From Paracoccaceae bacterium (GTDB lineage Bacteria > Pseudomonadota > Alphaproteobacteria > Rhodobacterales > Rhodobacteraceae): a stretch of DNA of 64,000 nucleotides. The notes under the pieces were generated by a model. The model made no database searches. It had not been told where the DNA came from and was given only the letters and a program-made list of their open reading frames with translations. The stretch covers positions 1-64,000 of the forward strand of contig JAPUEK010000015.1 of the NCBI GenBank assembly GCA_027492585.1. Reading direction: 5' to 3'. The position numbers and the translations under genes are program-made. Below are positions 33,014 to 50,633 of this stretch, one piece after another (the stretch's first letter is position 1; each line of letters opens with the position of its first letter).

Positions 33014-34378
33014 ATGACGACGCAGAACCCCATGACCCCACGCCGCGATCTGACGAAATCCAACGCGCAGTTCCGCAAGGCGGTGGAGCGCCTGCCGCTC
33101 GGCGTATCCTCCACCTTCCGGTACTGGGGCGATGACCGGACGATCTATGTCCATCACGGCAAGGGCGGGCGGACATGGGACATCGACGGCAACGGCTATG
33201 TGGACTACCGGCTGGGTTACGGCCCTGCGATCCTCGGCTATGCCGATGACCGGGTGGATGCGGCCGCCCGCAAGGGGATGGAGGTCGGCGGCGTCTTCGC
33301 GCTTTCGACGGAGAAGGAGCTGACCGTCGCCGACCGCATCGCCAAGATGGTGCCGGCGGCGGAGCTGGTGCGCTTTTCCAATTCCGGCACGGAGGCGGTG
33401 ATGGCGGCGCTGCGGCTGGCCCGCGCCTATACCGGGCGGGAAAGCTATCTGCTGGTCGAGGGCGGTTATCACGGGCTTTTCGATGCGGCCATGTGGATGG
33501 CGAACCTTGAGGAATGGGACCACCGCTCCAACAAGGACCCGGAGATGGTTCCCTATGGCAAGGGCATCCCGAATACGGTCAAGCAACTCGCCCATCTTGT
33601 GCCGATGAACGACCTGCAACGGCTGGAGGATACGTTCCGCAAGCATGGTGACCAGCTTGCCGCCATGCTGATCGAACCCATTCAGGGCAATTGCTGCGGG
33701 ATCATGGCGCGGGTGGAATATGTCCAGCTCGCCCGCCAGCTTTGCGATCAATACGGGGTGCTCCTGATCATCGACGAGGTGAAGACCGGCTTCCGCGTCG
33801 GCAAGGGCGGTATTCAGGGGATCATGGGGGTGACGCCCGACATCACCACCTTCGCCAAGGCGGTGGCCAACGGCTATCCGATCTCCGTCATCGCCGGGCG
33901 CGAGGAGGTGATGCGGACCTTCCGCTATGGCGGGGCGAGCCATGGCGGCACCTATACCGCCCATTCGGTCAGCCTTGCCGCCGCCGAGGAATGTCTGCGG
34001 ATCCTCGACGAGACCCCGGCACTGGAGACGCTGGCAGGCCATGGCCGCAACCTGATGACGGGGATTTCCCGTATCCTCGATGCGCGCGGGATCGTCCATT
34101 CCTACACCGGGCATCCGTCGATGTTCGGCCTGTTCTTCGCCGAAAAGGCCCCGGACAACTACCGGGACTGGAAGACCTCCGACTATACCTTCTACGACAC
34201 GATGGCGCATTACCTCCATGACCTCGGCATCATCGTGGAGCCGGACAGCCGTGAGCCGTGGTTCATGTGCGAGGCGCACGGCCTTGATCCCTCCTGCCTT
34301 GCGGATACGCTGAAGGCGGTGGAGCAGGCGGTGGACCTGACCATGGAACAGCTCGAAGCGGAGGCGAAAACCGCATGA
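33014..34378 (+). CDS. Class III PLP aminotransferase (HemL-like)
   Basis: A 454-aa fold-type I, class III aminotransferase. Key residues are D254 in LLIIDEVKTGFR and the PLP lysine K282 in TTFAKAVANGYP. The conserved FSNSGTEAVMAALRLARAYTGR binds phosphate. It resembles glutamate-1-semialdehyde aminomutase in the N-terminal half, but the context is catabolic, so an amino-acid or diamine substrate is more likely. It is first in the eleven-gene unit, downstream of the TetR-like palindrome, and overlaps the next gene by 4 bp. The ATG at 33014 has no good ribosome site; 33032 is an alternative. Confidence 0.85.
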   Translation: MTTQNPMTPRRDLTKSNAQFRKAVERLPLGVSSTFRYWGDDRTIYVHHGKGGRTWDIDGNGYVDYRLGYGPAILGYADDRVDAAARKGMEVGGVFALSTEKELTVADRIAKMVPAAELVRFSNSGTEAVMAALRLARAYTGRESYLLVEGGYHGLFDAAMWMANLEEWDHRSNKDPEMVPYGKGIPNTVKQLAHLVPMNDLQRLEDTFRKHGDQLAAMLIEPIQGNCCGIMARVEYVQLARQLCDQYGVLLIIDEVKTGFRVGKGGIQGIMGVTPDITTFAKAVANGYPISVIAGREEVMRTFRYGGASHGGTYTAHSVSLAAAEECLRILDETPALETLAGHGRNLMTGISRILDARGIVHSYTGHPSMFGLFFAEKAPDNYRDWKTSDYTFYDTMAHYLHDLGIIVEPDSREPWFMCEAHGLDPSCLADTLKAVEQAVDLTMEQLEAEAKTA

Positions 34379-35988
34379 CCCATGATGCCGTGATCATCGG
34401 GGCGGGGCATAACGGGCTGGTGACGGCCTGTTACCTTGCACGGGCGGGGCTGAAGGTCTGCGTCGTGGAGAAGAACGACTGGATCGGCGGGGCGGCGGTC
34501 AGCCGCGAGCTTTACCCCGGCTTCACCTATTCCAACTGCTCCTATGTCGCCTCGCTGTTCCGGCCGGAGATCATGCGCGATCTGGAGCTGCCGAAACATG
34601 GGTTGCAGATCCTGCCCTATGAGGGCGGCGCGGTCTTCAAGGAGGATGGCGGCTATCTCGGCATGTTCCGCGACCACGACGCGAACCGCCGCGAATTCGC
34701 CCGTCATTCCAAACGCGATGCCGAGGCCTATGACCGCTATTCGCGCGACGTGCTGCGGTTCTGCCGCTTCATCCGGCCGATGCTGTTGCGGACCCCGCCG
34801 GACCCTTCCACCTTCCGGCCGCGCGACCTGTCGGAGCTGATGTGGCTCGGCCGCAAGATGGGCGAGATGTCGGAGCGCCAGATCGCGGAGACGGTGCGCT
34901 TCTGGACGATGAGCATTTCGGACTATCTGGACGAATATTTCGAAAGCCCGGTGATCAAGGGCTATCTGGCGGTTTCCGCGATCATCGGCACGGCGCTTGG
35001 CCCTATGTCGCCGGGCTCGGCCTATGTGCTGCTGCATCACTACATGGGGGATGTGGACGGCAATGTCGGCGCCTGGGGCTATGCGCGCGGCGGCATGGGG
35101 TCGATCACCAGGGCGCTGACCCAAAGCCTGCTGGCGGCGGGCGGAGAAGTGCGGGCCGGCACCGGGGTGGAGCAGATCCTCGTCTCCGGCGGGCGCGCGA
35201 CGGGGGTGGTGCTGTCCAATGGCGACGTGATCAAGGGGCGGCGCGTCATTTCCAACATGGATGTGAAGCGGACCTTCCTGAAGCATGTCCCGGAGGCCGA
35301 GCTGCCCGGCGATTTCGTCAAGCGGGTGAAGGCGTTCAAGATCCGCGGCTCCTCGGGGAAGCTGAACATCGCGCTCGACAGCGCGCCGGTCTTTCCCGCC
35401 CTGCCGGAGGGCGCGCCGAACATCCGCGGCGACCTCCACTTCACCGATTCCGTCGAGAAGATGGAGCGGGCCTATGACGACTGGAAGGCCGGGCAGTTCA
35501 GCCGCGATCCCTTCCAGGATTGCATGATCCCGACGATGATCGACCCGACGATGACCCCGCCGGGCAAGCATTTCATGTCCTGCTTCGTGCAGTATGCCCC
35601 GCCGAAGATCGAGGGCCGCGACTGGACCGATGCCGATCGGGACGCCTTCGGGCAGACCTGCCTTGACCAGATCGCGCGCTATTCGCCGGGCTTCAAGGAT
35701 CGGGTGCTGCATGTCGAGGTCCGCACTCCGCGCGAGCTGGAGGCCGAGGTCGGGCTGACGGAGGGCAATATCTTTCAGGGCGAGCTGACCTTCGACCAGT
35801 TGCTCTTCAACCGTCCGGTGCCGGGCTATGCCCAGTATCGCAGCCCGATCCGCGATCTGTGGATGTGCGGCTCCTCCACCCATCCGGGCGGCGGGGTGAT
35901 GGGCGCGCCGGGCCGCAATGCCGCCGCCGAAGTGCTGCGCGAGATGAAACACCCCAGTGGAATGAGCGAAGCCTATGCCGTCATTTGA
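34375..35988 (+). CDS. NAD(P)/FAD-dependent oxidoreductase, phytoene-desaturase-like (first paralogue)
   Basis: A 537-aa flavoprotein. The dinucleotide-binding fingerprint AVIIGAGHNGLVTACYLARAG begins at residue 5, followed by VVEKNDWIGGAAVS. The C-terminal motif LWMCGSSTHPGGGVMGAPGRNAA closes the FAD site. This is the CrtI/PYROXD2-type superfamily. Carotenoid genes are absent, so carotenogenesis is unlikely. It overlaps the next gene, its own paralogue, by 14 bp. The likely role is oxidation of an amine or alcohol intermediate of the pathway; this is inference from context. Confidence 0.87.
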   Translation: MTHDAVIIGAGHNGLVTACYLARAGLKVCVVEKNDWIGGAAVSRELYPGFTYSNCSYVASLFRPEIMRDLELPKHGLQILPYEGGAVFKEDGGYLGMFRDHDANRREFARHSKRDAEAYDRYSRDVLRFCRFIRPMLLRTPPDPSTFRPRDLSELMWLGRKMGEMSERQIAETVRFWTMSISDYLDEYFESPVIKGYLAVSAIIGTALGPMSPGSAYVLLHHYMGDVDGNVGAWGYARGGMGSITRALTQSLLAAGGEVRAGTGVEQILVSGGRATGVVLSNGDVIKGRRVISNMDVKRTFLKHVPEAELPGDFVKRVKAFKIRGSSGKLNIALDSAPVFPALPEGAPNIRGDLHFTDSVEKMERAYDDWKAGQFSRDPFQDCMIPTMIDPTMTPPGKHFMSCFVQYAPPKIEGRDWTDADRDAFGQTCLDQIARYSPGFKDRVLHVEVRTPRELEAEVGLTEGNIFQGELTFDQLLFNRPVPGYAQYRSPIRDLWMCGSSTHPGGGVMGAPGRNAAAEVLREMKHPSGMSEAYAVI

Positions 35989-37492
35989 TGCGATCCTGAT
36001 CGGAGGCGGGGTGAACGGGCTGGCCTGTGCCGCGCGGCTGGCGGGCAAGGGGCGGCGGGTGCTGCTCTTGGAGGCCAAGGCGCAGCCGGGCGGCGGGGCC
36101 GGAACGGTGGAGTTTGCGCCGGGCTTCCATGTGCCGGCTCTGGCGCAGACCACGCAGGGACTTGACCCGCGGGTGATGGCCGGGATGGGGCTGGAGCGGC
36201 ACGGGCTGGCCTTTCACCCGGCGCTGACCACCACGGCGCTGTCGGCGACGGGCGATCATCTGATCGTCTCGGGCGGCAGGGCGGGCGGACCGGATGCGGA
36301 GGCCTTCGCGGCGCTGCACCGCAAGCTTGCGGATTTCGCCCGCGTTCTGGCGCCCTTTCGCGGCATCGCCCCGCCACGTCTGACCAACAAGGGGAATGAG
36401 TGGGGCAAGCTCGCGCGCTATGGGCTTGGCATCCGGGCGCTCGGGCAGGCGGAGTTCCGGGAATTCCTGCGGATGATCCTGATCAACGTCTATGACGTGG
36501 TGCAGGATGAGCTGACGGATGACCGGCTGAAAGGGCTGATCGCCTTCGACACCACGCTCGGCAGCTGGCTCGGGCCGCGCTCGCCGAATTCGCTGATCCT
36601 CTATCTCAACCGTCTGGCCGTGGGCGCGGACCCGCTTCTGCCGAAGGGCGGGATGGGCGCGCTTGCGGCGGCGATGGCACGCGCCGCGCAGGCGGCGGGG
36701 GTGGAGATCCGCAGCGCCTCCCCGGTCGCGCGGGTGCTGGTCGAGGGTGACCGCGCCACCGGCGTGGTGACGGAAGCGGGGGAGGAGCTGCGCGCCGGGC
36801 TGGTGGTTTCTGCCATCAACCCGCGGCTGACCTTCCAACGGCTCGTCGGGCCGCGGCATCTGGATGCGGGGTTCTTCACCCGCACCCATCACATCCGCTC
36901 CCGCGGGGCGGCGGCCAAGCTGCATCTGGCGCTGAAAGGCGTGCCGGAGTTCCGGGGCGCCGATCTGCGCTCCCGCCTTGTGATCGCGCCCTCGGTGGAA
37001 GCGGTGGAGGCCTGCTTCAACCCCGGCAAATATGGCGAGGTGCCGAAGGCCCCGGTGCTGGAGGCGATCCTCCCCTCCGCCCATGAGCCGGGTCTGGCGC
37101 CGGCGGGGCAGCATTGCCTTTCGGCCATCGTGCAATTCGCGCCCCATAGCCCCAAGGCGGGGGTGGAGGCCGCGCGGGCGGAGATGCTGGAGAACACGCT
37201 GGCGGTGCTGGAGGCGCACGCCCCCGGCCTGCGCGCGCTGATCACCCATGCCGAGATGCTGATGCCGCAGGACATCGAGGCGCGCTTCGGCATGGTCGGC
37301 GGCAACTGGCACCATGGGGAACTGGCGGTGGAACAGATGCTCTTCAACCGTCCGCTGCGCGAGGCGGCGCAATATGCGACCCCGCTGCCGGGTCTCTGGC
37401 TCGCCGGGGCGGGCAGCCATCCAGGTGGCGGGATCAACGGCGCCTCCGGCTGGAACGCGGCGGAGCGGATTCTGGCGGAGGGCCGGGCATGA
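35975..37492 (+). CDS. NAD(P)/FAD-dependent oxidoreductase, phytoene-desaturase-like (second paralogue)
   Basis: A 505-aa paralogue of the preceding protein. The FAD fingerprint is AILIGGGVNGLACAARLAGKG. The C-terminus aligns closely with its neighbour: GELAVEQMLFNRP and LWLAGAGSHPGGGINGASGWNAA correspond to GELTFDQLLFNRP and LWMCGSSTHPGGGVMGAPGRNAA. The pair may form a heterodimer or act on successive intermediates. It overlaps the GcvT-like gene by 4 bp. Confidence 0.87.
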   Translation: MPSFDAILIGGGVNGLACAARLAGKGRRVLLLEAKAQPGGGAGTVEFAPGFHVPALAQTTQGLDPRVMAGMGLERHGLAFHPALTTTALSATGDHLIVSGGRAGGPDAEAFAALHRKLADFARVLAPFRGIAPPRLTNKGNEWGKLARYGLGIRALGQAEFREFLRMILINVYDVVQDELTDDRLKGLIAFDTTLGSWLGPRSPNSLILYLNRLAVGADPLLPKGGMGALAAAMARAAQAAGVEIRSASPVARVLVEGDRATGVVTEAGEELRAGLVVSAINPRLTFQRLVGPRHLDAGFFTRTHHIRSRGAAAKLHLALKGVPEFRGADLRSRLVIAPSVEAVEACFNPGKYGEVPKAPVLEAILPSAHEPGLAPAGQHCLSAIVQFAPHSPKAGVEAARAEMLENTLAVLEAHAPGLRALITHAEMLMPQDIEARFGMVGGNWHHGELAVEQMLFNRPLREAAQYATPLPGLWLAGAGSHPGGGINGASGWNAAERILAEGRA

Positions 37493-38688
37493 TCGCAACC
37501 TCGAAGACCCCGCTCGACCATTTCCGCACGCCGCTCCTGCAAACGCCGTTCCACGCAAGGACCGCGCCCGCGAACCGGCTGAACCACTGGGGGCCATGGG
37601 CGGGCTACATGACCGCGCTCTGCTATGGCGACAGCGACATGGAATATACCGCCATCCGCAACGGGGCTTCGGTCTATGACCTTTGTCCGATGGTGAAATA
37701 TGCGGTGCGGGGTCGGGAGGCGGCGGCGTATCTGAACCGCCTGACCATCCGCAATGCCGCCAAGCTGTCGGTCGGCGGGGTGCATTACACGGTCTGGTGC
37801 GACGATGCCGGCAAGATCCTCGATGACGGGACGCTCTTCCGCCATGCCGAGGATCACTACGTGATCTGCTGTCAGGAGCGGCATCTGGGCTGGCTGCTGG
37901 ACAGTGCGGAGGGCTTCGAGGTCACGGTGGAGGAGATCACCGAAGACATCGCCGCCCTGTCGCTGCAAGGCCCCTGCTCCGCGACGGTGCTGGGGGCGGC
38001 GGGGTTCGACGTGTCGGCGCTGAAGCCCTTCCGCATGGCGCGTTTCCCCTTTGAGGGCGGAGAGATCACCGTCTCCCGCACCGGCTTCACCGGCGATCTC
38101 GGCTATGAGCTGTGGATGGCGCCCGATCAGGCGCTGCCGTTCTGGGATCACCTCTTTGCCGCCGGGGCGCCGTGGAACATCCGGCCGATCGGCACGGATG
38201 CGCTGAACCTCGCACGGATCGAGGCGGGGTTTATCATCACCAACATGGATTTCATCCCCGCCGATCAGGCCCTGCGCGAGGATCGCCCGCGCAGCCCGCT
38301 GGAGATGGGTCTCGACTGGATGATCGACTGGGAGAAGGGCCATTTCACCGGCCGCCGGGCGCTGCTGGCGGAGCGGGAGAAGGGTTCGGACTGGGCCTTG
38401 ATCGGGCTGGAGGTGCCGGGGAACATCTCCGCCGAAGGTTCGATCCTTTATTACGGCAAGAAGGTGGAGGCGGGCTTCATCACCGCCGCCGCCTGGTCGC
38501 CTTCGGTCAAGAAATCCATCGCCTTGGCGCAGGTGCCGGCGCGGCACCGGGGCGGGCATGACCTTTGGGTGGAGATCTATGCGCTGCGCGAGCTGCAATA
38601 TGTGAAGCTGATGCTGCCGGTGACGGTGGTGGAGCGGCCGTTCTTCAATCCGGCCCGCAAGCGGGCGACGCCGCCGGGGCGGGTGTGA
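37489..38688 (+). CDS. GcvT-like folate-dependent aminomethyl/methyltransferase
   Basis: A 399-aa member of the glycine-cleavage T-protein family, which also includes the DMSP demethylase DmdA and demethylating folate enzymes. Motifs are GKILDDGTLFRH (the catalytic Asp region), TVSRTGFTGDLGYELW and GTDALNLARIEAGF. There are no glycine-cleavage P or H genes nearby, so it is not the housekeeping T-protein. It is placed between flavin oxidoreductases and Rieske oxygenases, which suggests it passes a methyl or formaldehyde-level C1 unit to tetrahydrofolate. It overlaps the next stop and start as TGATG. Confidence 0.86.
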   Translation: MIATSKTPLDHFRTPLLQTPFHARTAPANRLNHWGPWAGYMTALCYGDSDMEYTAIRNGASVYDLCPMVKYAVRGREAAAYLNRLTIRNAAKLSVGGVHYTVWCDDAGKILDDGTLFRHAEDHYVICCQERHLGWLLDSAEGFEVTVEEITEDIAALSLQGPCSATVLGAAGFDVSALKPFRMARFPFEGGEITVSRTGFTGDLGYELWMAPDQALPFWDHLFAAGAPWNIRPIGTDALNLARIEAGFIITNMDFIPADQALREDRPRSPLEMGLDWMIDWEKGHFTGRRALLAEREKGSDWALIGLEVPGNISAEGSILYYGKKVEAGFITAAAWSPSVKKSIALAQVPARHRGGHDLWVEIYALRELQYVKLMLPVTVVERPFFNPARKRATPPGRV

Positions 38689-39836
38689 TGGAGCCGCACC
38701 CCTCCTCCCCCCATCCGTCTTCCCCGCGTCTGGACCATTGCCCGGAGGGGCTGCCCAAGGCGGCCTATCTCTCCGCCGACTGGTTCGCGCGGGAGATGAA
38801 GACGGTCTTTGCCCGGCAATGGATCTGTGCGGGGCGGGCGGAGGATCTGGCGCGCGGCAGGATGCGGCGAGTGCGGCTTGGTCAGGCGGAGGTGGTGCTG
38901 TGCCGCGCCGAGGACGGGGCGCTGACCGCCTATCACAACGCCTGCCGGCATCGCGGCTCGGAGCTGTGCCGCGCGCCGGAAGAACCGCTCGGCAAGCTGA
39001 TCCGCTGCCCCTATCACGCCTGGGCCTATGCGGCGGCGGAGGGGCGGCTGGTGGCGACGGGGCCGGCGAAGCCCACGGCGGATTTCGACCGGGACGCCTA
39101 TGGGCTGGTGCCGGTGGCGCTGCGGGTCTGGGCGGGCTTCGTCTTTCTGAACGCTGCCGCCCGACCGGGGGAGATCGGCTCGGATGTGCCTTTGTCCACG
39201 CTCGACAACTGGCCGATGGCCGGGCTGGTCACCGGGCATCGCTGGGAAACCGGGATCGCCTGCAACTGGAAATCCTTTTGGGAGAATTACTCCGAATGCC
39301 TGCATTGCCCCGGCATCCACCCGGAGCTGTGCGACATGGTGCCTGTTTACCGGACCGGGGTGATGGCGCCGTCCGAAGCGCCCGGCTGGACGCCGGAGGT
39401 GCCGGTGGGGCGCAACCTGAAACCGGGGGCGGAGACATGGACCCTGACCGGCGCCCCCTGCGGCCCGGTCTTTGCGGGCCTGAGCGCGGCGGAGCGGGAG
39501 GCGGGTTATACCTTTGTCACCCTCTGGCCCTCGGCTTATGTGGTGGCGCATGTGGATCATGTCCGCTCCGTCCGGCTGGAGCCGCTGGGGCCGGAGCGGA
39601 CGCGGCTCATCGCCGAATGGCATTTCCCGCCCGAGACGCTGGCGCAGCCCGATTTCGACGCCGCCGAAGTCGCGGCTTTTGCGAAGATCGTGATGGAGCA
39701 GGACGGCGCCGCGGCGGAGATGAACCAGCGGGGCCTGCGCTCGCCCTCTTTCACGGCGGCGCGGCTGATGCCCGAGGAATATGAAATCCACCGCTTTCAG
39801 AACTGGGTCCGCAGGCAGATGGAGAAGGTGCCATGA
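38688..39836 (+). CDS. Rieske oxygenase alpha subunit (Stc2/GbcA-like)
   Basis: A 382-aa ring-hydroxylating-type oxygenase. Rieske cluster ligands are C86 and H88 (ACRHRG), then C107 and H110 (RCPYHAW). The mononuclear iron region NWKSFWENYSECLHCPGIHPE provides H206 and H211. The ENYxECxHCPxxHP pattern is shared with the N-demethylating enzymes for glycine betaine (GbcA) and stachydrine (Stc2) rather than true aromatic dioxygenases. Methyl removal from a quaternary amine is therefore plausible. No dedicated reductase gene is adjacent. The ATG at 38688 overlaps the previous stop by 1 nt. Confidence 0.87.
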   Translation: MEPHPSSPHPSSPRLDHCPEGLPKAAYLSADWFAREMKTVFARQWICAGRAEDLARGRMRRVRLGQAEVVLCRAEDGALTAYHNACRHRGSELCRAPEEPLGKLIRCPYHAWAYAAAEGRLVATGPAKPTADFDRDAYGLVPVALRVWAGFVFLNAAARPGEIGSDVPLSTLDNWPMAGLVTGHRWETGIACNWKSFWENYSECLHCPGIHPELCDMVPVYRTGVMAPSEAPGWTPEVPVGRNLKPGAETWTLTGAPCGPVFAGLSAAEREAGYTFVTLWPSAYVVAHVDHVRSVRLEPLGPERTRLIAEWHFPPETLAQPDFDAAEVAAFAKIVMEQDGAAAEMNQRGLRSPSFTAARLMPEEYEIHRFQNWVRRQMEKVP

Positions 39837-41062
39837 CCGACCAGACCCCCGCAACCATCCCCGTCCCGGAGGAATGGGACCGGCGCGGCCTGCCCGCCTG
39901 GACCTATCATTCGCAGGCGATGTTCGAGCTGGAAAAGGAGGAGGTCTTTCTCAACCACTGGCAGGTCGTCTGCCATGTGAACGACATCTCGGCCCCCGGC
40001 GACTGGCGCAGCTTCGATCTGCTGGGGGAGAGGGCCTTTGCCGTCCGTGGGCAGGACGGGGTGGTGCGGGCCTTTCACAACCTCTGCCGGCATCGCGGGG
40101 CGCGGGTGGTGGACGGGATTTCCGGCCATTGCCGGGGGGCGATGATCTGCCCGTTCCATGGCTGGGTCTACAACCTCGACGGCTCCCTGCGCGGCGCGGC
40201 GCGGCCGGAGACCTTCGGCGGCATGGACCGGACGAAATTCGGCCTGAAACCCATCGAGATGGAGATCTGGCAGGGCTTCGTCTTCATCCGCTTCAAGCCC
40301 GGCCCGCAGCCCTCGGTGGCGGAGTGTCTGCAACCCTATGGGCAGGACTTCACCGATTTCCGCTCCGAAGGGCTGCTGCCCATCGGCGACAGCGGCCTTT
40401 GGGGTGCCGCTCCGGTGAACTGGAAGTCGGTCTGCGACGTGGACAACGAGGGGTATCACGTCGCCTTTGCCCATCCCTCCCTGCAGGAGCTTTACGGGCG
40501 CAGCTATACCGACATCCTGCATGAGAACGGGCTGTTCCAGTCCAATGCCACCTATGGCGACCGTCCGGGGCGCAACTGGTCGGTGCGGAACTATGTCAGG
40601 CACTCCCCCCGGCAGGACTGGCTGCCGGAAAGGCTCCAGCGGGCGTGGAACTATTACGGGCTGTTTCCCAATACCGTGTTCACCTTCACGCCCGAGACCG
40701 TGCAATACTATGCCGAAATCCCGCTTGAGGTGGGCAGGACCGAGATGACCTATGCGCTTTACCGCCAGCCGGAAGAAACGCGGGAGATCCGCGCGGCGCG
40801 CTATCTCGGCAACCGGATCGACCGGCATACTTCGGCAGAGGACCAGCAACTGACGATCTGGTCGAACGAGTCGATGAAATCCTCGGCCTTCGACGGGTTC
40901 CATCTGTCGGATCTGGAATTCGGGCTCCGGCAGCATCACGACAAGCTGCGCCGGCTCCTGCCGGTAATGCGAATGGAGACCGCCCCGCCCGAAGCGGACA
41001 TCGCGGCGCTCAATCAGGAAATGCTTGGCAGAGCCGCTGCGGCGCGCGACCCTCACCCATGA
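39833..41062 (+). CDS. Rieske oxygenase alpha subunit (second)
   Basis: A 409-aa Rieske protein, distinct from its neighbour. Ligands are C85 and H87 (LCRHRG), then C106 and H109 (ICPFHGW). The non-heme iron region is CDVDNEGYHVAFAHPS, with H209 and H214. The variation before the first His (DVDNEGYH versus ENYSECLH) indicates a different subfamily, so the two enzymes probably act on different steps or form a mixed oligomer. It overlaps the first Rieske gene by 4 bp. Confidence 0.87.
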   Translation: MTDQTPATIPVPEEWDRRGLPAWTYHSQAMFELEKEEVFLNHWQVVCHVNDISAPGDWRSFDLLGERAFAVRGQDGVVRAFHNLCRHRGARVVDGISGHCRGAMICPFHGWVYNLDGSLRGAARPETFGGMDRTKFGLKPIEMEIWQGFVFIRFKPGPQPSVAECLQPYGQDFTDFRSEGLLPIGDSGLWGAAPVNWKSVCDVDNEGYHVAFAHPSLQELYGRSYTDILHENGLFQSNATYGDRPGRNWSVRNYVRHSPRQDWLPERLQRAWNYYGLFPNTVFTFTPETVQYYAEIPLEVGRTEMTYALYRQPEETREIRAARYLGNRIDRHTSAEDQQLTIWSNESMKSSAFDGFHLSDLEFGLRQHHDKLRRLLPVMRMETAPPEADIAALNQEMLGRAAAARDPHP

Positions 41063-41102
41063 CGATGCGCCGGCAGGCGCGGATCAACAGCGGAGAAGCT
41101 CC

Positions 41103-42218
41103 ATGACCCTTTCCCTGAAACTCAGCCGGCGCGCGACCCTGACGGCGCTTGGCGGCGCGCTTGCCCTTCCCTATGTCCGCCCCTCCTGGGCGCAGGCCGG
41201 AAGCGTCAATGTCTACAACTGGTCCGATTACATCGGCGAAACCACCGTCGCCGATTTCGAGGCGGAAACCGGGATCGGGGTGGTCTACGATCTTTACGCG
41301 TCGTCGGAGGAAATGCAGGCCAAGATGCTGGCCGGATCGACCGGCTATGACGTGGTGCTGCAAACGGGTCTGGCGCTCAACAAGTTCATCGCGGCGGGGG
41401 TCTACCAGAAGCTCGACCGCACGAAGATCCCCGGCTGGTCGAATTACGATCCAGCGATCCTGAAGATCATCGAGGGCTTTGATCCCGGCAACCTTTATGG
41501 CGCGCCCTACATGTGGGGGTCGGTGGGGATCACCTACAACCTCGACATGGTGAAGGAGCGGCTGCCGGAGGCCGATCTCGATTCGCTCGACACGCTGATG
41601 AAGCCGGAGAATGCGGCGAAGCTGGCCGATTGCGGGATTTCCTTCCTCGACAGCCCGACCGATGGCGGCTTCATGGTGATGAAGTACCTCGGCATCGACC
41701 CGGATACGGCAGGGCCGGCGGAATATGCGAAGATGGCCGAGGCGATGGGCAAGATCCGCCAGTATATCGCCACCTTCGACAATGCGAATTACCTGACCAC
41801 CATCCCCAATGGCGAGGTCTGCGCGGTCAATACCTGGTCGGGCGATTACAGCGTCGCCAAGGCCCGCGCGGCCGAGGCGGGGATTGCGATGAACCTTTCC
41901 TATCATGTGCCGAAGACCGGCGCGCCTGCGTGGTTCGATCTGTGGTGCATCCCGTCCGACGCCCCGAATGTCGAGAACGCTTATCGCTTCATCGACTATC
42001 TGACCCGCCCGGAGGTGATCGCCGCCTGCACGAACTTCACCGGCTATGCCAATGCCAACAAGGCGGCGACGGCCTTCGTGGACCCGGCCGTGGCCTCGGA
42101 CCCGGCGATCTATCCCGATGCTGCAACTCTGGCGCGGATGTATACGCCGAAGCCGCAGACGGCGGGGCAGGAAAGCGAGCTGACCCGGATCTGGACCGCG
42201 ATCAAGACCGGGGGTTGA
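41103..42218 (+). CDS. PotD/PotF-like substrate-binding protein
   Basis: A 371-aa periplasmic binding protein of the polyamine type. A twin-arginine-like signal (SRRATLTALGGALALPYVRP) precedes the mature N-terminus SVNVYNWSDYI. This is the hallmark of PotF/SpuD-type putrescine or spermidine binders, as is AKMLAGSTGYDVVLQTG. GGAGAAG lies upstream of the ATG at 41103. It heads the transporter block and probably binds a linear cationic substrate; whether it is putrescine or an N-methylated analogue is not determinable by eye. Confidence 0.9.
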   Translation: MTLSLKLSRRATLTALGGALALPYVRPSWAQAGSVNVYNWSDYIGETTVADFEAETGIGVVYDLYASSEEMQAKMLAGSTGYDVVLQTGLALNKFIAAGVYQKLDRTKIPGWSNYDPAILKIIEGFDPGNLYGAPYMWGSVGITYNLDMVKERLPEADLDSLDTLMKPENAAKLADCGISFLDSPTDGGFMVMKYLGIDPDTAGPAEYAKMAEAMGKIRQYIATFDNANYLTTIPNGEVCAVNTWSGDYSVAKARAAEAGIAMNLSYHVPKTGAPAWFDLWCIPSDAPNVENAYRFIDYLTRPEVIAACTNFTGYANANKAATAFVDPAVASDPAIYPDAATLARMYTPKPQTAGQESELTRIWTAIKTGG

Positions 42219-42219
42219 G

Positions 42220-43353
42220 ATGGAAGCGGTCGTGACGGGAGCCGCGCCCGCCGCGGAAACGGAGACCCCCTTCATCCGCATCGAGGGCGTGTCGAAGACC
42301 TTCGGCACCTTTCAGGCCGTGCGCGACGTGAACCTGACGATCCGGCGGGGAGAGATCTTCTCGCTCCTTGGCGGGTCGGGCTGCGGCAAGACCACGCTCC
42401 TGCGGATGCTCGCGGGGTTCGAGGAACCGACGGCGGGGCGCATCTTCATCGACGGGCAGGATATGGCCGGGGTGCCGGCCTATGACCGCCCGGTGCATAT
42501 GATGTTCCAGAGCTATGCGCTTTTCCCCCATATGAGCGTGGAGAAGAACATCGGCTACGGGCTGAAGCACGAGGCGATGAGCAAGGCGCAACGCGAGGCC
42601 CGCGTGCGCGAGATGCTGGAACTGGTGCAGCTTGCCCCCTTCGCCACCCGCAAGCCGCATCAGATCTCCGGCGGGCAGCGGCAAAGGGTGGCTCTGGCCC
42701 GCGCCCTTGCCCGGCAGCCGAAGCTTCTGCTGCTCGATGAGCCGCTGGCGGCGCTCGACAAGAAGCTGCGCGAGCATACCCAGTTCGAGCTGATGTCCAT
42801 TCAGGAACGGACCGGCGTGACCTTCATGGTCGTCACCCATGATCAGGAGGAGGCGATGACCCTCTCCGACCGGATTGCGGTGATGGACAAGGGGCAGGTG
42901 AAGCAGGTCGGCTCGCCGACCGAAATCTACGAATTCCCGCAGAGCCGCTTCGTGGCGGGCTTCATCGGCTCCATCACCGCTTTCGAGGCGAAGGTGGTTT
43001 CGGTGACGGGGGAGACGGCGGAGGTGGAGGTGCCGGCCTTTGCCGCCACGATCACCGCGCGGGCGGTGCCGGGGCTGGTCGCGGGGCAGAAGGTGACGCT
43101 GGCGATCCGGCCCGAAAAGCTGACGATCCGGCAGGAGCGTCCGGCGGCGGGCAATGTCGTCGAAGGTACGGTCAAGGATCTGGCCTATTTCGGCAAGGAC
43201 AGCCTTTACCGCATCACCCTGCCCTCGGGCGATCTCGTGGCGGTCCATGCCGTCAACGCCAAACGGGGAACGGAGGCGCTGCGGGTCGCCGACTGGTATG
43301 ACCGCGTCTGGCTCAGCTTCGAGCCGGGTGCCGCCATCCTGCTGGTGGAATAG
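42220..43353 (+). CDS. PotA/PotG-like ABC ATP-binding protein
   Basis: A 377-aa ABC ATPase. Walker A is GGSGCGKTT, signature [14 protein letters not shown], Walker B LLLLDEPLAALD, and the switch His is in VTHDQEEAMTLSD. The C-terminal TOBE domain contains VTLAIRPEKLTIRQ. It starts 1 bp after the binding-protein stop and precedes two permeases, giving a complete PotFGHI-type importer. Confidence 0.93.
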   Translation: MEAVVTGAAPAAETETPFIRIEGVSKTFGTFQAVRDVNLTIRRGEIFSLLGGSGCGKTTLLRMLAGFEEPTAGRIFIDGQDMAGVPAYDRPVHMMFQSYALFPHMSVEKNIGYGLKHEAMSKAQREARVREMLELVQLAPFATRKPHQISGGQRQRVALARALARQPKLLLLDEPLAALDKKLREHTQFELMSIQERTGVTFMVVTHDQEEAMTLSDRIAVMDKGQVKQVGSPTEIYEFPQSRFVAGFIGSITAFEAKVVSVTGETAEVEVPAFAATITARAVPGLVAGQKVTLAIRPEKLTIRQERPAAGNVVEGTVKDLAYFGKDSLYRITLPSGDLVAVHAVNAKRGTEALRVADWYDRVWLSFEPGAAILLVE

Positions 43354-43356
43354 CAG

Positions 43357-44271
43357 ATGCGCGCGCGTCTCGCCGGATGGTTTCACCGCAGGGGATGGTC
43401 CGACCTGATGGTGGCGCTGCCCTATCTGTGGCTGGTGCTGCTGTTCCTGATCCCCTTCCTGCTCGTCGTCGCCATGAGCGTGGCGACCAAGACCCCGACC
43501 GCCCCGCCCTTCAGCTTCGGCGGGGAGTATCCGCTGGTCAGCTTTGCCGATTACGCGCGGCTTATGCAGGATGATCTCTACATCCGCGCCTTCCTGACCT
43601 CGATCGGCAATGCCACCCTTGCGATGGTGCTGTGCCTGCTGCTCGGCTATCCGATGGCGCTTGGCCTGACGCGGGTGTCGCGGAGCTGGCGCAATGTGCT
43701 CCTCATGCTGGTGATCCTGCCGTTCTGGACCTCGTTCCTTCTGCGCGTCTATGCGTGGATGGGGCTGATGGGCAAGAATAGCTGGTTCAACGGGCTGCTG
43801 ACCGAGGGCTGGAATACGGTCGTGCCGGCAAGCTGGGCCGTCACCTCGATCCCGATGATGAATTCCAACTTCGCGGTCGTGCTGGTCATGGTCTACACCT
43901 ACCTGCCCTTCATGATCCTGCCGCTTTATGCCAGCCTGGAGCGGCTCGATCCGGTGCTGGACGAGGCGGCGATGGACCTCGGCTCCCGCCCGTTCCGGGT
44001 GTTCCTGGACGTGACCCTGCCGCAGAGCGTGCCGGGGATCATCGCGGGCGGGATGCTGGTCTTCATCCCGGCGGCGGGGGAACTGGTGATCCCGACACTG
44101 GTCGGCAATGCCGCCGACCCGATGATCGGGCGGGTGATCTCGGACGAGTTTTCGGTGGCGACCGACTGGCCCATGGCCTCGGCGGTGGCGGTGGCGCTGT
44201 TGCTGCTCATGGTCGTGCCGATGATGGTCTACAGCCATTATCAGGCCCGCTCCGAAGGGGGCGAGCGATGA
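43357..44271 (+). CDS. PotB/PotH-like ABC permease
   Basis: A 304-aa inner-membrane permease with six hydrophobic helices, the first being LPYLWLVLLFLIPFLLVVAMS. The ATPase-docking EAA region is DEAAMDLGSRPFRVFLDVTLP. It follows the ATPase after 3 bp and overlaps the second permease by 4 bp. It imports the compound bound by the upstream PotF-like protein. Confidence 0.92.
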   Translation: MRARLAGWFHRRGWSDLMVALPYLWLVLLFLIPFLLVVAMSVATKTPTAPPFSFGGEYPLVSFADYARLMQDDLYIRAFLTSIGNATLAMVLCLLLGYPMALGLTRVSRSWRNVLLMLVILPFWTSFLLRVYAWMGLMGKNSWFNGLLTEGWNTVVPASWAVTSIPMMNSNFAVVLVMVYTYLPFMILPLYASLERLDPVLDEAAMDLGSRPFRVFLDVTLPQSVPGIIAGGMLVFIPAAGELVIPTLVGNAADPMIGRVISDEFSVATDWPMASAVAVALLLLMVVPMMVYSHYQARSEGGER

Positions 44272-45107
44272 GACGCCGGCCGATCTTCCTTATCACCGTG
44301 CTCTGCTTCGGCTTTGCCTTCTTCTACATCCCGATCCTGTCGATGATGGTCTATTCCTTCAACGGCTCCCGTCTGGCGACGGTCTGGGGCGGGTTTTCGA
44401 CGAAATGGTATGTCTCGCTCTTCAACAACCGGCAGATGATGGCGGCCCTTCTGCTGTCGCTGAAGATCGCCGTGGTCTCGGCCACCTGCGCCACGATCCT
44501 CGGCACCATGGCGGGGATCGCCCTTGCCCGCTTTCGCCGCTTCCGGGGGAGGACGCTCTTTTCCGGGCTGGTGACGGCGCCACTGATCATGCCCGATGTG
44601 ATCACCGGGATTTCCTCGCTGATCTTCTTCATCCTTCTGGCGCAATGGATCGGCTGGCCCGCGCAGCGCGGCTTCACCACGATCACGCTGGCCCATATCA
44701 CCTTCTCCATGGTCTATGTGACGACCGTGGTGCAGGCCCGGATGAGCCAGGCCGACCGCTCCATCGAGGAGGCGGCGATGGATCTCGGCTCGAAGCCCTG
44801 GCAGGTGATGTGGGATGTGACCCTGCCGGTGATCAGCCCGGCGATCCTGTCGGGGTGGCTGCTGGCCTTCACGATTTCGATGGACGAGGTGGTGATCACC
44901 TCCTTCACCACCGGGCCGGGCAGCACGACGCTGCCGCTCTTGATCTGGTCGAAGGTGAAGCTCGGCGTGACCCCGGATGTGAACGCGCTGGCGACGCTGA
45001 CCGTGCTGGTTGTGGGGGTGGGCGTGGCGGTGGCGGGCTGGGTGCTGAACCGGGCCGAGCGGCGGCGCGACGAGGATGCGCGCCTCGCCTATCGGGCCAA
45101 CGAATGA
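44268..45107 (+). CDS. PotC/PotI-like ABC permease
   Basis: A 279-aa permease, six helices beginning RPIFLITVLCFGFAFFYIPIL. The EAA motif is EEAAMDLGSKPWQVMWDVTLP. It completes the heterodimeric permease. Its stop overlaps the start of the cupin gene as ATGA, tying the last gene to the transporter. Confidence 0.92.
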   Translation: MRRRPIFLITVLCFGFAFFYIPILSMMVYSFNGSRLATVWGGFSTKWYVSLFNNRQMMAALLLSLKIAVVSATCATILGTMAGIALARFRRFRGRTLFSGLVTAPLIMPDVITGISSLIFFILLAQWIGWPAQRGFTTITLAHITFSMVYVTTVVQARMSQADRSIEEAAMDLGSKPWQVMWDVTLPVISPAILSGWLLAFTISMDEVVITSFTTGPGSTTLPLLIWSKVKLGVTPDVNALATLTVLVVGVGVAVAGWVLNRAERRRDEDARLAYRANE

Positions 45108-45961
45108 GCCGGGGCCTGCTTGGTGTGCCTTTGGGGGAGCCGGGATCGGGACGGGAGCGTTATGCCCGCGCCATGGAGCTTTATCAGACGGGGGCGATCA
45201 GCGCCGCGGTGCTGGAGGCCTACCGCGTGGCCGCCGCGCGTGACGCGCAGCCGCCGGAGCCGGTGCTGGCGGAGCGAGGCCTGCCTGTGCCGGAGGTGCT
45301 GCCGCTTGCCCCCGAAAACACCATCCGGGCGCTGATCGCGGCGGCGGATCTCTATCTCGCCGGCCTCCCCGGCCCCGGCATCTCCGAGGTCCGTCAAGGC
45401 ATCGCCGCTGCCCGCCACGGCCCGGTAAGCCTCGTTGCAGCGGAGCCGAACCCGGTCGTGGACCGCCATCTGCCGGAGGCTTTGCGCGCCCTTGCCGCCA
45501 CCCATCCCGGCCTTGCCGCTGCCATTGCCGCCGCCCGCCCCCATCTGCGCTGGATCACCTATAACGGCTATCCGCGCGCGGAAATCGGCGAGGGCTTCGC
45601 CACCGGCCATGCCTTCGCCTCGATCCTCGGCGAGGAGGCGAGCCTGCCCGCCGCGGATTTCGACTTCGGTCTCTTCCTGATCGCGCCGCAGGTGCTCTAC
45701 CGCGACCACCACCATGCCGCGCCGGAGCTTTACGCGCCGCTGACCGGCCCGCATGGCTGGCGCTTTGGCCCGGATCAGCCGCTGCTGCTCCGTCCCGCCC
45801 ATGTGCCGGTCTGGAACCCGCCGCATCAGCCGCATCTGACCAAGGTCGGCGCGCTGCCCTTCCTCTGCCTCTTCGGCTGGACCCGTGACGCCCAGTCGCC
45901 CGCGCAGGTGATCCCAGCCCGTGACTGGGCGGAGCTGGAGGCTTTGCGTCTTGCCCACTGA
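45104..45961 (+). CDS. Cupin of the DMSP-lyase-like (DLL) superfamily
   Basis: A 285-aa protein with an N-terminal helical region and a C-terminal cupin. The metal motif in HHHAAPELY has H-x3-E-x-Y spacing, and a final His cluster follows (PPHQPHL) 37-40 residues on. This matches the His/Glu/Tyr/His zinc set I recall for DddQ. The rest includes GWRFGPDQP and LPFLCLFGWTRD. Many DLL cupins are not DMSP lyases, so lyase activity is unproven. It may process another sulfonium or amine substrate imported by the coupled transporter. It is the last gene of the unit. Confidence 0.72.
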   Translation: MSRGLLGVPLGEPGSGRERYARAMELYQTGAISAAVLEAYRVAAARDAQPPEPVLAERGLPVPEVLPLAPENTIRALIAAADLYLAGLPGPGISEVRQGIAAARHGPVSLVAAEPNPVVDRHLPEALRALAATHPGLAAAIAAARPHLRWITYNGYPRAEIGEGFATGHAFASILGEEASLPAADFDFGLFLIAPQVLYRDHHHAAPELYAPLTGPHGWRFGPDQPLLLRPAHVPVWNPPHQPHLTKVGALPFLCLFGWTRDAQSPAQVIPARDWAELEALRLAH

Positions 45962-45985: not shown

Positions 45986-46690
45986 ATCCGCAGCTGTTCC
46001 CGCGCCGATGCGGCGGGAAAGCCGACGTTGCGGGTCACCGGGCCTGCCTTGTGGCGGCTTCCGATGCGGCGGGCGGCAAGGCTCCGCTGATGTTCCCGTC
46101 CGGGCAGAGCGCCCTGCCGTTTACGGCCCCGGATCGGGAGCGGTTCCATATCCTTGCAGCGGCGATGCCGCCACCCGTGCGGTGCTCGATGGTGTCGCGG
46201 CGGATCTGCCGCGCTTTGCCGAACTGGGGGGAGGATGGCGACTATCCAGCCGCTCCGGGCCTGTTGCGATCCGGGCAGTCCCGACGAGACGATGGCGATG
46301 ATCGGCGCGGAGCGTTTTGGCGGCACCAATGCCTTCCGTCGCCTGCCGGATGCCGGAGCGCTGTTGCGTGAAATCCGGCCGGGCGGTGACGACGCTGAAC
46401 CCGTTCGAGATCATCGGCACGGCCGTTGCCCGCGATCCCCGTGCCACCGCGGACGGGCGGAGGTCCTTCTACCGGAGGAGAGGCTGGAGGAGGCCGTGAC
46501 CGGCCATGCCACCGGCGCGGCAGCCGCCTGCTGGCGCGGGGGTTTCAGCGGGCGTCTGGCTCCGGGCTTTTCGGCCCATCTCCTCCTGCCCGACCGCGAT
46601 ATCTTCGGCTGCGATCCCATGAGATTGCGGAAAGACAGGTGCTTCTGGCGCTTTTGAAAGGGCCGGGGCGTTCATCGGGCCGAGGGGGTC
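45986..46690 (+). pseudogene. Possible decayed coding sequence, unidentified
   Basis: Coding-like segments switch among all three plus-strand frames: RFHILAAAMPPPVR, then VLDGVAADLPRFAELG, then IGAERFGGTNAFRRLPDAG, then LNPFEIIGTAVARDP, then GHATGAAAACWRGGFSG. No single frame is protein-like throughout. The family could not be named. It may be a frameshifted pseudogene. Together with the pseudogene at 47387-48515, it makes 45962-48700 a degraded stretch. Confidence 0.3.
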
Positions 46691-48798: not shown

Positions 48799-50106
48799 GT
48801 GGGACAGCAGCTTTCACGCTGGACAATGGCATGGTTTGCGACGGCGCTCGGCTTTCTGCTCGCGGCGCTGATGGCGCTTGTCGCGGGGTGGGCGGGGCCG
48901 GACGCCGGACAGAACGGGTTGGCGCTGGCGGCCGTGCATCTTTTCGCGCTGGGCTGGCTCGGGCAGATGATGCTGGGCGCCCTGATCCAGTTCGTGCCGG
49001 TTCTGGTGGCGCAGCCTCTGGCCTTTCCGCGTCTGGCCCTGCCGGCGCTTGGCCTTTGCGTGACGGGCGTGGGGACCCTCGTCGCAGGCTTTGCCGGGCT
49101 GGCCGGGTGGGAGCCGGGTCTGGCTTTCCTGTCGCTCGGACCGCTGCTTCTGGGCGGAGGATTCGCTCTGGTGGCGCTGATGCTCGGCGCCACGATCCTG
49201 CGGGCGAAGGCCTGGCGGCAGGGGGCGGGGCGTTCGGTGCTGCTGGCGCTTTTCGGTCTGGCCGGGCTTTGGGCGACGGGTGCGGGCATGGCGGAGGCTC
49301 TGGCGGGGCAGGGGATCGGGGTCGCTCTCGTGCCTGACGGGCTGCCGTTCCACATTCTGCTGGGACTTGGCCTGTGGCTCAGCCTTGCGGCCTTTGGCGT
49401 CAGCTACAAGCTCTTCCCGATGTTCCTCCTCGCCTCCGAGGCCGATGGTCGGCTGCGGGCGCTGACCTTCACGGCGGCCCTTCTGGCGGCGGCCCTGGTG
49501 CTGGTCGGCCTGCTGGCGGTGCTGCGCGGGCAGGACTTTCCGCTCTGGCTGCCGGTCCTGCCGATGCTGGCGGCGGCGAGCCTCTACCTCGTCGATATCG
49601 CCGCGATCTGGCGGTCGCGCAAACGGCCCCGGCCCGAGGTCAACATGCTCATGAGCCGCGCGGCCCTCGCCTTTCTGGTGCTGGCCGCCCTGCTCATCCT
49701 GCCTGCGATGCGGTTCGGCGGCAGATGGGCGGAAGCGACGGTTTTCGCCGCCGCCGCCGGCTGGCTCTCCATGCTCACCCTGGCGCAACTGGTGAAGATC
49801 ACCAGCTTTCTGACCTGGATCCAGGTCTTTGCCACCCGGATCGGCCGGGCGCCGGTGCCGATGGTGCAGGATCTGACCGATGCCCATGCGGTGCGGCTCT
49901 GGCTCTGGCTCTGGTGTCTTGGGGCGGGGGGTGGCACGCTGGCGTTGCTTGCCGGTGCGCCCCTGATGTTCCGCTGCGCGGCCCTCGCCCTGCTGATCGC
50001 GGCTCTGGGCCTCGTGCGGGAGGTCCATGCCATCCGCCGCCTTGTCCATCTGCCGGTGGCCAGGCGGCCCGGCACCCTGCCGCCCCTGATCCTTCCTGTC
50101 CTGTGA
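48799..50106 (+). CDS. Polytopic membrane protein of the denitrification cluster
   Basis: A 435-aa protein with about 12 membrane helices. The segment AVHLFALGWLGQMMLGALIQFVPVL near residue 45 has the His-plus-glycine helix pattern seen in heme-copper-oxidase-like and NnrS-like proteins; FHILLGLGLWLSLAAFGVSYKLFPMF follows. The frame is open to 48601, but residues before 48799 are Arg-rich and contain the NnrR box, so GTG 48799 (after GGGGGGA) is preferred. It is followed by DUF2249 and DUF59 genes. A role in NO or nitrite handling is inferred from context. Confidence 0.72.
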   Translation: MGQQLSRWTMAWFATALGFLLAALMALVAGWAGPDAGQNGLALAAVHLFALGWLGQMMLGALIQFVPVLVAQPLAFPRLALPALGLCVTGVGTLVAGFAGLAGWEPGLAFLSLGPLLLGGGFALVALMLGATILRAKAWRQGAGRSVLLALFGLAGLWATGAGMAEALAGQGIGVALVPDGLPFHILLGLGLWLSLAAFGVSYKLFPMFLLASEADGRLRALTFTAALLAAALVLVGLLAVLRGQDFPLWLPVLPMLAAASLYLVDIAAIWRSRKRPRPEVNMLMSRAALAFLVLAALLILPAMRFGGRWAEATVFAAAAGWLSMLTLAQLVKITSFLTWIQVFATRIGRAPVPMVQDLTDAHAVRLWLWLWCLGAGGGTLALLAGAPLMFRCAALALLIAALGLVREVHAIRRLVHLPVARRPGTLPPLILPVL

Positions 50107-50114
50107 GTGATGCC

Positions 50115-50633
50115 ATGACCCGACCGACCCGCGACCTTGACGTTCGCCCCCTCCTTGCCGAAGGGCAGGAGCCTTTTGCCGCCATCATGGCCGCAACCGA
50201 TGCCCTGGCCCCCGGCGAGAGCCTGCGCCTGATCGCCCCGTTCCGGCCGGTGCCGCTGTTCGGGGTGATGGCCAAGCGCGGCTTTATCGCCAGCGACCGG
50301 GCGCTTGGCGGCGGCGACTGGGAAGTGATCTTTTCCCCCGCCTGTGAGGAGCCGTCGGGACCCGAAGGCCAAGGCGTCACCGATGCCGCGCTCTGGCCCG
50401 ATCCGTCGCAGATGCTGGATCTGGAGGGGCTGATGCCGCCGGAACCGATGGTGAGGATTCTCGAAACACTGGAAGAGATGCGGGTGGGAGAGGTGCTTTT
50501 TGCCGCTCTCGGCCGGGAGCCGGTGTTTCTCTTTCCCGAGCTTGCGGCGCGCGGCCATGAATGGGCGGGCGGGTTCAGCAGCGACGGGGCGACCTATCGG
50601 CTCATGGTGCGGCGGGGGGCGGGTGATGCCTGA
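50115..50633 (+). CDS. DUF2249 protein, two-domain
   Basis: A 172-aa protein with two DUF2249-like halves. The first runs LDVRPLLAEGQEPFAAIM, then LAPGESLRLIAPFRPVPLFGVMAKRG. The second runs LDLEGLMPPEPMVRILETL, then VLFAALGREPVFLFPELAARGHEW. DUF2249 resembles TusA-like sulfur-carrier folds and often accompanies denitrification genes. It starts 8 bp after the membrane gene and overlaps the next gene by 8 bp. Function is unproven. Confidence 0.8.
   Translation: MTRPTRDLDVRPLLAEGQEPFAAIMAATDALAPGESLRLIAPFRPVPLFGVMAKRGFIASDRALGGGDWEVIFSPACEEPSGPEGQGVTDAALWPDPSQMLDLEGLMPPEPMVRILETLEEMRVGEVLFAALGREPVFLFPELAARGHEWAGGFSSDGATYRLMVRRGAGDA

Follow-up and report, generated by a model that had tools for sequence, protein, structure and literature searches.

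Organization of the operon

The window analyzed here is a 64,000-nucleotide stretch of DNA from a Paracoccaceae bacterium (assembly GCA_027492585.1, contig JAPUEK010000015.1, positions 1 to 64,000), and its subject is a run of eleven genes, termed A to K, that may serve in the use of methylated amines. Methylated amines represent a sizeable pool of organic nitrogen and one-carbon (C1) units, only part of which is covered by the known aerobic routes. All eleven genes lie on the + strand between positions 33014 and 45961, and neighbors overlap or nearly abut. Overlaps occur at A/B (4 bp), B/C (14 bp), C/D (4 bp), D/E (1 bp), E/F (4 bp), I/J (4 bp) and J/K (4 bp); the gaps are F/G (40 bp, the largest), G/H (1 bp) and H/I (3 bp). 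These coordinates bear out a preliminary description, made from the sequence alone, of eleven co-directional, tightly packed genes with a maximum gap of 40 bp, and its family calls for the eleven genes agree with the Pfam and NCBIfam profile results. The genes, and the amino terminal part of K that is treated separately as KN, are as follows (aa, amino acids).

A, 33014..34378, + strand: class III aminotransferase, GSAM/GntE-like, 454 aa; PF00202 (Aminotran_3) 209 bits
B, 34375..35988, + strand: CrtO-like FAD protein 1, 537 aa; PF01593; NCBIfam CrtO 283.9 bits (cut-off 1000)
C, 35975..37492, + strand: CrtO-like FAD protein 2, 505 aa, related to B; PF01593 70.8 bits; CrtO 189.4 bits (cut-off 1000)
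D, 37489..38688, + strand: GcvT-like protein, 399 aa; PF01571 196 bits; GCV_T and GCV_T_C
E, 38688..39836, + strand: Rieske oxygenase alpha subunit, aromatic residue at 203, 382 aa; PF00355 and PF00848
F, 39833..41062, + strand: Rieske oxygenase alpha subunit, Asp at 203, 409 aa; PF00355 and PF00848
G, 41103..42218, + strand: PotF-like periplasmic binding protein, 371 aa; SBP_bac_8; NCBIfam PotF 341.3 bits (cut-off 636)
H, 42220..43353, + strand: PotG/PotA-like ATPase, 377 aa; PF00005 and TOBE_2; TIGR01187 potA subfamily 379.8 bits (above the cut-off of 355.6)
I, 43357..44271, + strand: PotH-like permease, 304 aa; PotH 285.1 bits (cut-off 489)
J, 44268..45107, + strand: PotI-like permease, 279 aa; PF00528 (BPD_transp_1) 64.5 bits; assigned by position and by homology in relatives
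K, 45104..45961, + strand: small N-terminal domain fused to a DddQ-like cupin, 285 aa; PF16867 (DMSP_lyase) 61.5 bits (cut-off 27), residues 116-254
KN, 45104..45307, + strand: N-terminal part of K; occurs as a separate protein in other genomes

The flavoprotein and GcvT-like core

B and C had been described as two FAD oxidoreductases; they are indeed flavoproteins, and the assignment can be refined to proteins that resemble CrtO and the carotenoid desaturases. The solved sequence relatives of B are carotenoid desaturases, and an AlphaFold2 model of B (predicted local distance difference test, pLDDT = 84.1) was matched best by Foldseek to a carotenoid desaturase (PDB: 4rep). The next matches were putrescine oxidase, nicotine oxidoreductase and monoamine oxidases with 14–18% identity.

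The nearest model to D is that of trimethylamine N-oxide (TMAO) demethylase (233 bits, cut-off 1100), and the nearest solved chain is again a TMAO demethylase (9q59/9q5a, 156 bits). The match is restricted to the C-terminal, GcvT-like part of this closest named relative (residues 410–784 of 793); D differs in being a separate protein without the N-terminal part. In 114 of 115 D sequences, the residue aligned with position 97 of E. coli GcvT is an aspartate, a folate-site residue with a role in folate chemistry. From both of its domains and this aspartate, D is predicted to be a tetrahydrofolate-dependent C1 transferase. Since two flavoproteins stand beside a folate carrier, an arrangement reminiscent of dimethylglycine dehydrogenase, a flavin-dependent oxidation of N-methyl groups with capture of the C1 unit is proposed.

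A profile search of named genomes for D returned at least 577 confirmed relatives, the best 80 of which were kept as loci. The full eleven-gene order is found in 17 of these 80 (L034, L035, L037, L040–L046, L049, L052, L054, L057, L058, L061 and L098), with protein identities to the window of approximately 47–88%. L035 among them is Fuscovulum blasticum DSM 2131, a culturable strain. L065 has the order of the window with one extra gene before the cupin, and a complete copy of the operon is carried on an annotated plasmid of Fuscovulum ytuae. One of the 17, L043, is in fragments. Its record is titled as an Exiguobacterium profundum metagenome-assembled genome and holds a Rhodobacter-type operon copy with broken frames; the record is probably mislabeled or contaminated.

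Counts from the best 80 lean to close relatives, and records overlap among the loci (L029 and L063, for example, are the same genome). A fairer sample is provided by 394 genomes of the window's family, one per genus, in which D was accepted at E ≤ 1e-80 and was present in 39. In all 39, B, C and D occur in order on one strand with C adjoining B. With identity thresholds for the parts that were chosen post hoc, after a first look, 17 of the 39 are of the window type and 20 form a second type, while L181 and L182 have too few parts. In ten of the 17 window-type genomes, the genes from A to the cupin follow the identical order. Three others lie on short contigs (L156, L159 and L169, with L159 also lacking E); A and the cupin half are absent from L029 and L161, F to J from L162, and E from L185.

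The second type combines B-C-D with a different class III aminotransferase and a different binding protein of the PotD/PotF family. The best solved relative of this aminotransferase is the uncharacterized 3i5t (455 bits), and putrescine transaminase (337 bits) and polyamine:pyruvate transaminase (332 bits) score among many omega-transaminases. An E or F relative is present in 8 of the 15 second-type loci with full flanks. Across the 31 full-flank loci of both types, a TetR gene is found in 29 (accepted from 31% identity), either aminotransferase in 27, either binding protein in 27, a methyltransferase in 24, and E or F in 23. That distant parts of similar role have gathered twice around B-C-D is, in our view, the best evidence for a single pathway. 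Conservation of gene order in other genomes, which the preliminary description had proposed to look for, is thus present in both surveys. The B-C-D core also occurs with other partners in rhizobia; pSymA of S. meliloti encodes only a 34.5% relative of D.

The importer and its binding pocket

The nearest solved relatives of G are PotF and SpuD-type proteins, and E. coli PotFGHI and the importer genes G to J share family, the gene order PotF-G-H-I and most pocket residues. According to PMC8666671, S38, D39 and D247 of PotF engage the proximal primary amine, W37, W244 and F276 form an aromatic box, and S85, S87, A182, E185, D278 and L348 line the distal side, where E185 has a conservation of ≥96% across 250 homologues. 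Of the pocket residues W37, D39, W244, D247, D278 and E185, G keeps all except E185. In PotF numbering, W37, D39 and Y40 are invariant in 33 G proteins, as are W244 and D278 in the 32 that have letters there; D247 is Asp in 30 and Glu in 2. F276 is replaced by Trp and E185 by Asp in 32 of 32, S87 is not Ser in 31 of 32, S85 is not Ser in 23 of 32, A182 is replaced by Ser in 31 of 32, and L348 is Pro in 29 of 32. All of the PotFGHI equivalog cut-offs are missed.

The acids of the primary-amine end are therefore kept and the distal side is altered and less polar, a combination that would suit a methylated ammonium group. The aromatic box is retained in the second-type binding proteins, but in 28 of 28 of them Gly stands at 39, Cys at 278 and Thr, Ser or Ala at 247. 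As a result of the loss of these three acids, the two types may differ in substrate.

The Rieske oxygenases

As described in PMC7948474, CntA has a bridging Glu205 and a Tyr203 that contacts the quaternary ammonium; residue 203 is Tyr or Phe in group Va and Asn in group Vb, which includes GbcA and Stc2. E and F share the Rieske fold, the His-His-Asp iron site and the bridging Glu with CntA/YeaW (Va) and Stc2 (Vb). In a 22-row alignment of E with E. coli YeaW, the bridging Glu and the iron site are invariant, and the Glu is present in 64 of 64 E records. Residue 203 of E is aromatic in all 41 distinct sequences (40 Tyr, 1 Phe), the group Va signature that it shares with CntA.

The best solved relative of F is CntA (114 bits), and the bridging Glu is found in all 57 F records that have letters there. 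Of 50 distinct sequences, 48 have Asp at residue 203, one has Tyr, and one, the fragmentary L043, has no readable motif. F therefore fits neither Va nor Vb at this position, a residue that places it outside the Rieske subclades distinguished in PMC7948474. For both proteins the Glu was counted over all records and residue 203 over distinct sequences. As a guess, Asp203 could hold a charged, non-quaternary amine.

The likeness to GbcA and Stc2 put forward in the preliminary description does not hold at this residue, since E has the aromatic residue of group Va in place of the Asn of Vb and F has Asp. Scores against the GbcA equivalog (E 161 bits, F 103.7 bits, cut-off 670) are far from its threshold, and no GbcB-type reductase is present among the eleven proteins. 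The genome of the window holds two further Rieske matches to E.

The aminotransferase and the cupin fusion

The best solved relatives of A are GSAMs. A scores 439.8 bits against GntE (cut-off 525) and 344.5 bits against the GSAM subfamily (cut-off 398).

K was first described as a cupin of the dimethylsulfoniopropionate (DMSP) lyase-like group. Membership in the DMSP-lyase family is confirmed for the cupin, and the gene is in fact a two-part fusion of a first unit of approximately 60 residues, KN, and a DddQ-like cupin. An AlphaFold2 model of K (pLDDT = 92.3) was matched best to DddQ (PDB: 4b29, Foldseek E = 1.3e-13). K and the DddQ-type lyases have in common the cupin fold over approximately 211 columns and the metal and tyrosine residues; they differ in that identity is only 20–21% and K has the additional KN. 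In an alignment with 5cu1 and 4b29, H204, E208, Y210 and H244 are invariant in 20 of 20 sequences, and H204, E208 and H244 are presumably metal ligands.

Among 45 records, KN is a stand-alone protein of 66–91 aa in 23 and is fused to the cupin in 22; many rhizobia are represented in this set, and their stand-alone copy sits just 3' of D. No Pfam family was matched by three stand-alone copies or by this part of K at E values up to 10, so that the operon gives a name to a small protein without a Pfam match. A search of 289 genomes of the class found only the window's own copy; because this sample holds four genomes of the window's family, the window's own included, it says little about the spread of KN.

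KN occurs without the cupin in L029/L063 and L050, which run from B to J with no A, and in L051, which runs from B to F. L055 has a whole K and no A. The cupin is found in only 1 of the 15 full-flank second-type loci. Even among window-type loci, A and the cupin are thus not always present.

Regulators and amine enzymes in related loci

The TetR regulator of one relative was tested and is BetI-like (98.9 bits, equivalog cut-off 201.3). The methyltransferases found in relatives are of class I (for example L029 2205–2975, L035 20157–20948 and L114 22018–22791), and the one tested is nearest to the sarcosine/dimethylglycine N-methyltransferase model (78.5 bits versus a cut-off of 550). Neither gene lies beside the operon of the window, and no close copy of the methyltransferase is present in the window's genome. 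A BetI-like TetR that is 64–65% identical to the cluster regulator is found in that genome on another contig (G000:C81, L199 9349–19901), where its neighbors are an HpaB-like monooxygenase, a Rieske gene and a trimethylamine/histamine-dehydrogenase-like gene.

The gene inserted in L065 between the importer and the cupin belongs to the histamine/trimethylamine-dehydrogenase family (634 and 510 bits), and relatives of it occur in nine further cluster stretches, ten in total, some of which are cut at the edge. In L071, L104, L111 and L112, a PuuC/betaine-aldehyde-dehydrogenase-like gene (564.8 bits, PuuC cut-off 850) stands beside the core. Both kinds of gene would fit the removal of an amine by way of an aldehyde. 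As trimethylamine-dehydrogenase-family genes also occur elsewhere in such genomes, their location near the core is modest evidence and is given little weight.

A proposed pathway

Taken together, the operon may encode a route that takes up a linear N-methylated amine, oxidatively N-demethylates it in steps and deaminates it, a reading to which we give about an even chance. The substrate is most likely a diamine- or polyamine-like compound, one of whose ends is a free primary amine and the other an ammonium group that is methylated and probably quaternary. In the proposed sequence, G-H-I-J would import the methylated amine, after which E, and perhaps F, would oxidize an N-methyl group at the quaternary nitrogen, drawing electrons from a reductase encoded elsewhere. 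B and C would then oxidize the remaining N-methyl groups while D hands the C1 unit to tetrahydrofolate; in this respect B-C-D would act like dimethylglycine dehydrogenase with another flavoprotein fold. A would transaminate the primary amine. KN is perhaps an accessory of B-C-D, and the cupin half may act on some intermediate, possibly by elimination. The class of pathway is fairly well supported, with each chemical step being a prediction.

Import, demethylation with C1 recovery and transamination had been suggested in the preliminary description, and the gene order, the PotF pocket, the Rieske motifs and the GcvT aspartate are all consistent with that outline as a prediction from sequence. 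Its view of the route as complete was overstated, since the operon encodes neither a Rieske reductase nor an aldehyde dehydrogenase, and A or the cupin is absent from some relatives. It had also noted no described pathway with this set of genes; likewise, no description of the gene set or pathway was found among the matches listed in open-licence PubMed Central papers.

The route from glycine betaine through GbcAB, dimethylglycine dehydrogenase and sarcosine oxidase proceeds by a Rieske attack on a quaternary amine followed by flavin-dependent N-methyl oxidation with a GcvT-type folate acceptor. The general scheme is the same as the one proposed here; the components differ in that the operon has CrtO-like flavoproteins, a separate GcvT protein, a class III aminotransferase, a PotF-type importer, and KN and cupin domains, with no reductase. 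A plain glycine betaine or stachydrine operon was rejected on the missed GbcA cut-off, the aromatic residue 203 of E, and the different importer and flavoproteins.

A number of observations weigh against the proposed pathway. A is nearest to GSAM and GntE rather than to polyamine transaminases, and no A stands beside B in the window-type loci L029/L063, L050, L051 and L055. By overall score, E is closer to 3vca and 4qup of the Stc2 type (144 bits) than to CntA (107 bits). The operon has no CntB-like partner, and profile scans identified no Rieske reductase among its eleven proteins, the rest of the genome not having been searched for one. Within the G pocket, the S38 position is Ala in 17 of 33 and Ser in 14 of 33, and, according to PMC8666671, the F276W exchange is frequent among ordinary polyamine transporters, at a third of them. 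The three acids are lost in the second-type binding proteins. The cupin half has no clear place in the scheme and neither does the methyltransferase of the relatives, and two genes of the trimethylamine/histamine-dehydrogenase family (52 and 46% identity) lie on other contigs of the window's genome.

Alternative substrates

An N-methylated diamine-like compound is ranked first as the likely substrate, followed by omega-amino-acid betaines and methyllysines. With the same chemistry, the substrate could instead be a betaine such as gamma-butyrobetaine, 5-aminovalerate betaine or beta-alanine betaine, from which A would transaminate the freed omega-amino acid. Betaines are the substrates of CntA and Stc2, relatives of the two Rieske proteins, the regulator in relatives is BetI-like, and the retention of the aromatic box with loss of the three acids in the second-type binding proteins would be expected if the ligand were zwitterionic or carried a single charge. 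However, the G protein of the window keeps D39, D247 and D278 together with an acid at 185, which would make a poor site for a carboxylate. Owing to this pocket comparison, the omega-amino-acid betaine is no longer favored and is considered unlikely, though it is the strongest of the alternatives.

Somewhat less likely again is an N6-methylated lysine (trimethyllysine or its lower homologues) that would be demethylated to lysine and then transaminated. To our knowledge, PotF-type pockets are not known for alpha-amino acids, which counts against it. The argument for methyllysine comes by way of human PYROXD2, a probable member of the broad flavoprotein group that includes B and C; that this kinship is presumed weakens the alternative. 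Variants near PYROXD2 strongly affect plasma N6-methyl- and dimethyllysine (PMC8109053), and PYROXD2 variants associate with urinary trimethylamine (PMC3169529) and with plasma dimethylamine (PMC3169529 / PMC8109053).

Plain uptake and oxidation of putrescine or spermidine, in which case the methyl reading would be wrong, is improbable. G is nearest to PotF and SpuD with most of the binding residues kept, but such a pathway would have no use for a quaternary-ammonium Rieske oxygenase, a GcvT-like protein with a folate aspartate, or the BetI-like regulator of the relatives.

A sulfonium analogue (DMSP, DMSP-amine or S-methylmethionine), demethylated by D and cleaved by the cupin, was an option in the preliminary description and is the least probable of all: the invariant DddQ-like residues of the cupin and the place of D in the DmdA superfamily speak for it, but D is far below the DmdA cut-off (109.7 versus 410 bits) and nearer to TMAO demethylase, two flavoproteins and a Rieske of the quaternary-ammonium type would not be needed, and the cupin half is missing in L029/L063, L050, L051 and most second-type loci. 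On this evidence, sulfonium use was set aside as the main role.

Rhizopine use was also set aside. The core in Rhizobium sp. SL42 has a fatty-acid-desaturase-family gene, a MocE-type ferredoxin and iolG in its vicinity (L116 1–3550), a set that resembles rhizopine-use genes; the presence of the ferredoxin and iolG there was judged to be probably coincidental.

Beyond the N-methylated diamine-like substrate that is preferred here, a broader proposal may be offered tentatively, as one that is rather doubtful at present. B, C, D and KN may form a new class of folate-coupled N-demethylase built on carotenoid-desaturase-like flavoproteins and served by F as a new Asp203 type of Rieske oxygenase, for growth on N-methylated amines in approximately a tenth of the sampled genera of the family and in many rhizobia. 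For a group of flavoproteins that has seen little biochemistry, the operon points to a function that can be tested. If such a demethylase class exists, N-demethylation would become a candidate role for the human orphan PYROXD2. Should B and C be methylamine oxidases, they may provide a bacterial model for this human protein, whose variants affect methyllysine levels (PMC8109053).

Neighboring genes

A further feature lies 3' of K.

46226..46687, + strand: probable amidohydrolase remnant; 36% identity to residues 377–533 of the L028 protein

The similarity extends beyond the stop of the open reading frame at 46154–46657, and its Amidohydro_3 score is 20.4 bits (below the cut-off of 29.7). An amidohydrolase follows K in some relatives, and the copy in the window is probably a decayed C-terminal piece. 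Farther along, an open reading frame of 419 aa (49374–50633) has two DUF2249 stretches and a weak TusA match. Upstream of the operon and on the opposite strand, a bacterial transglutaminase-like protein is encoded at 26198–27070 (-).

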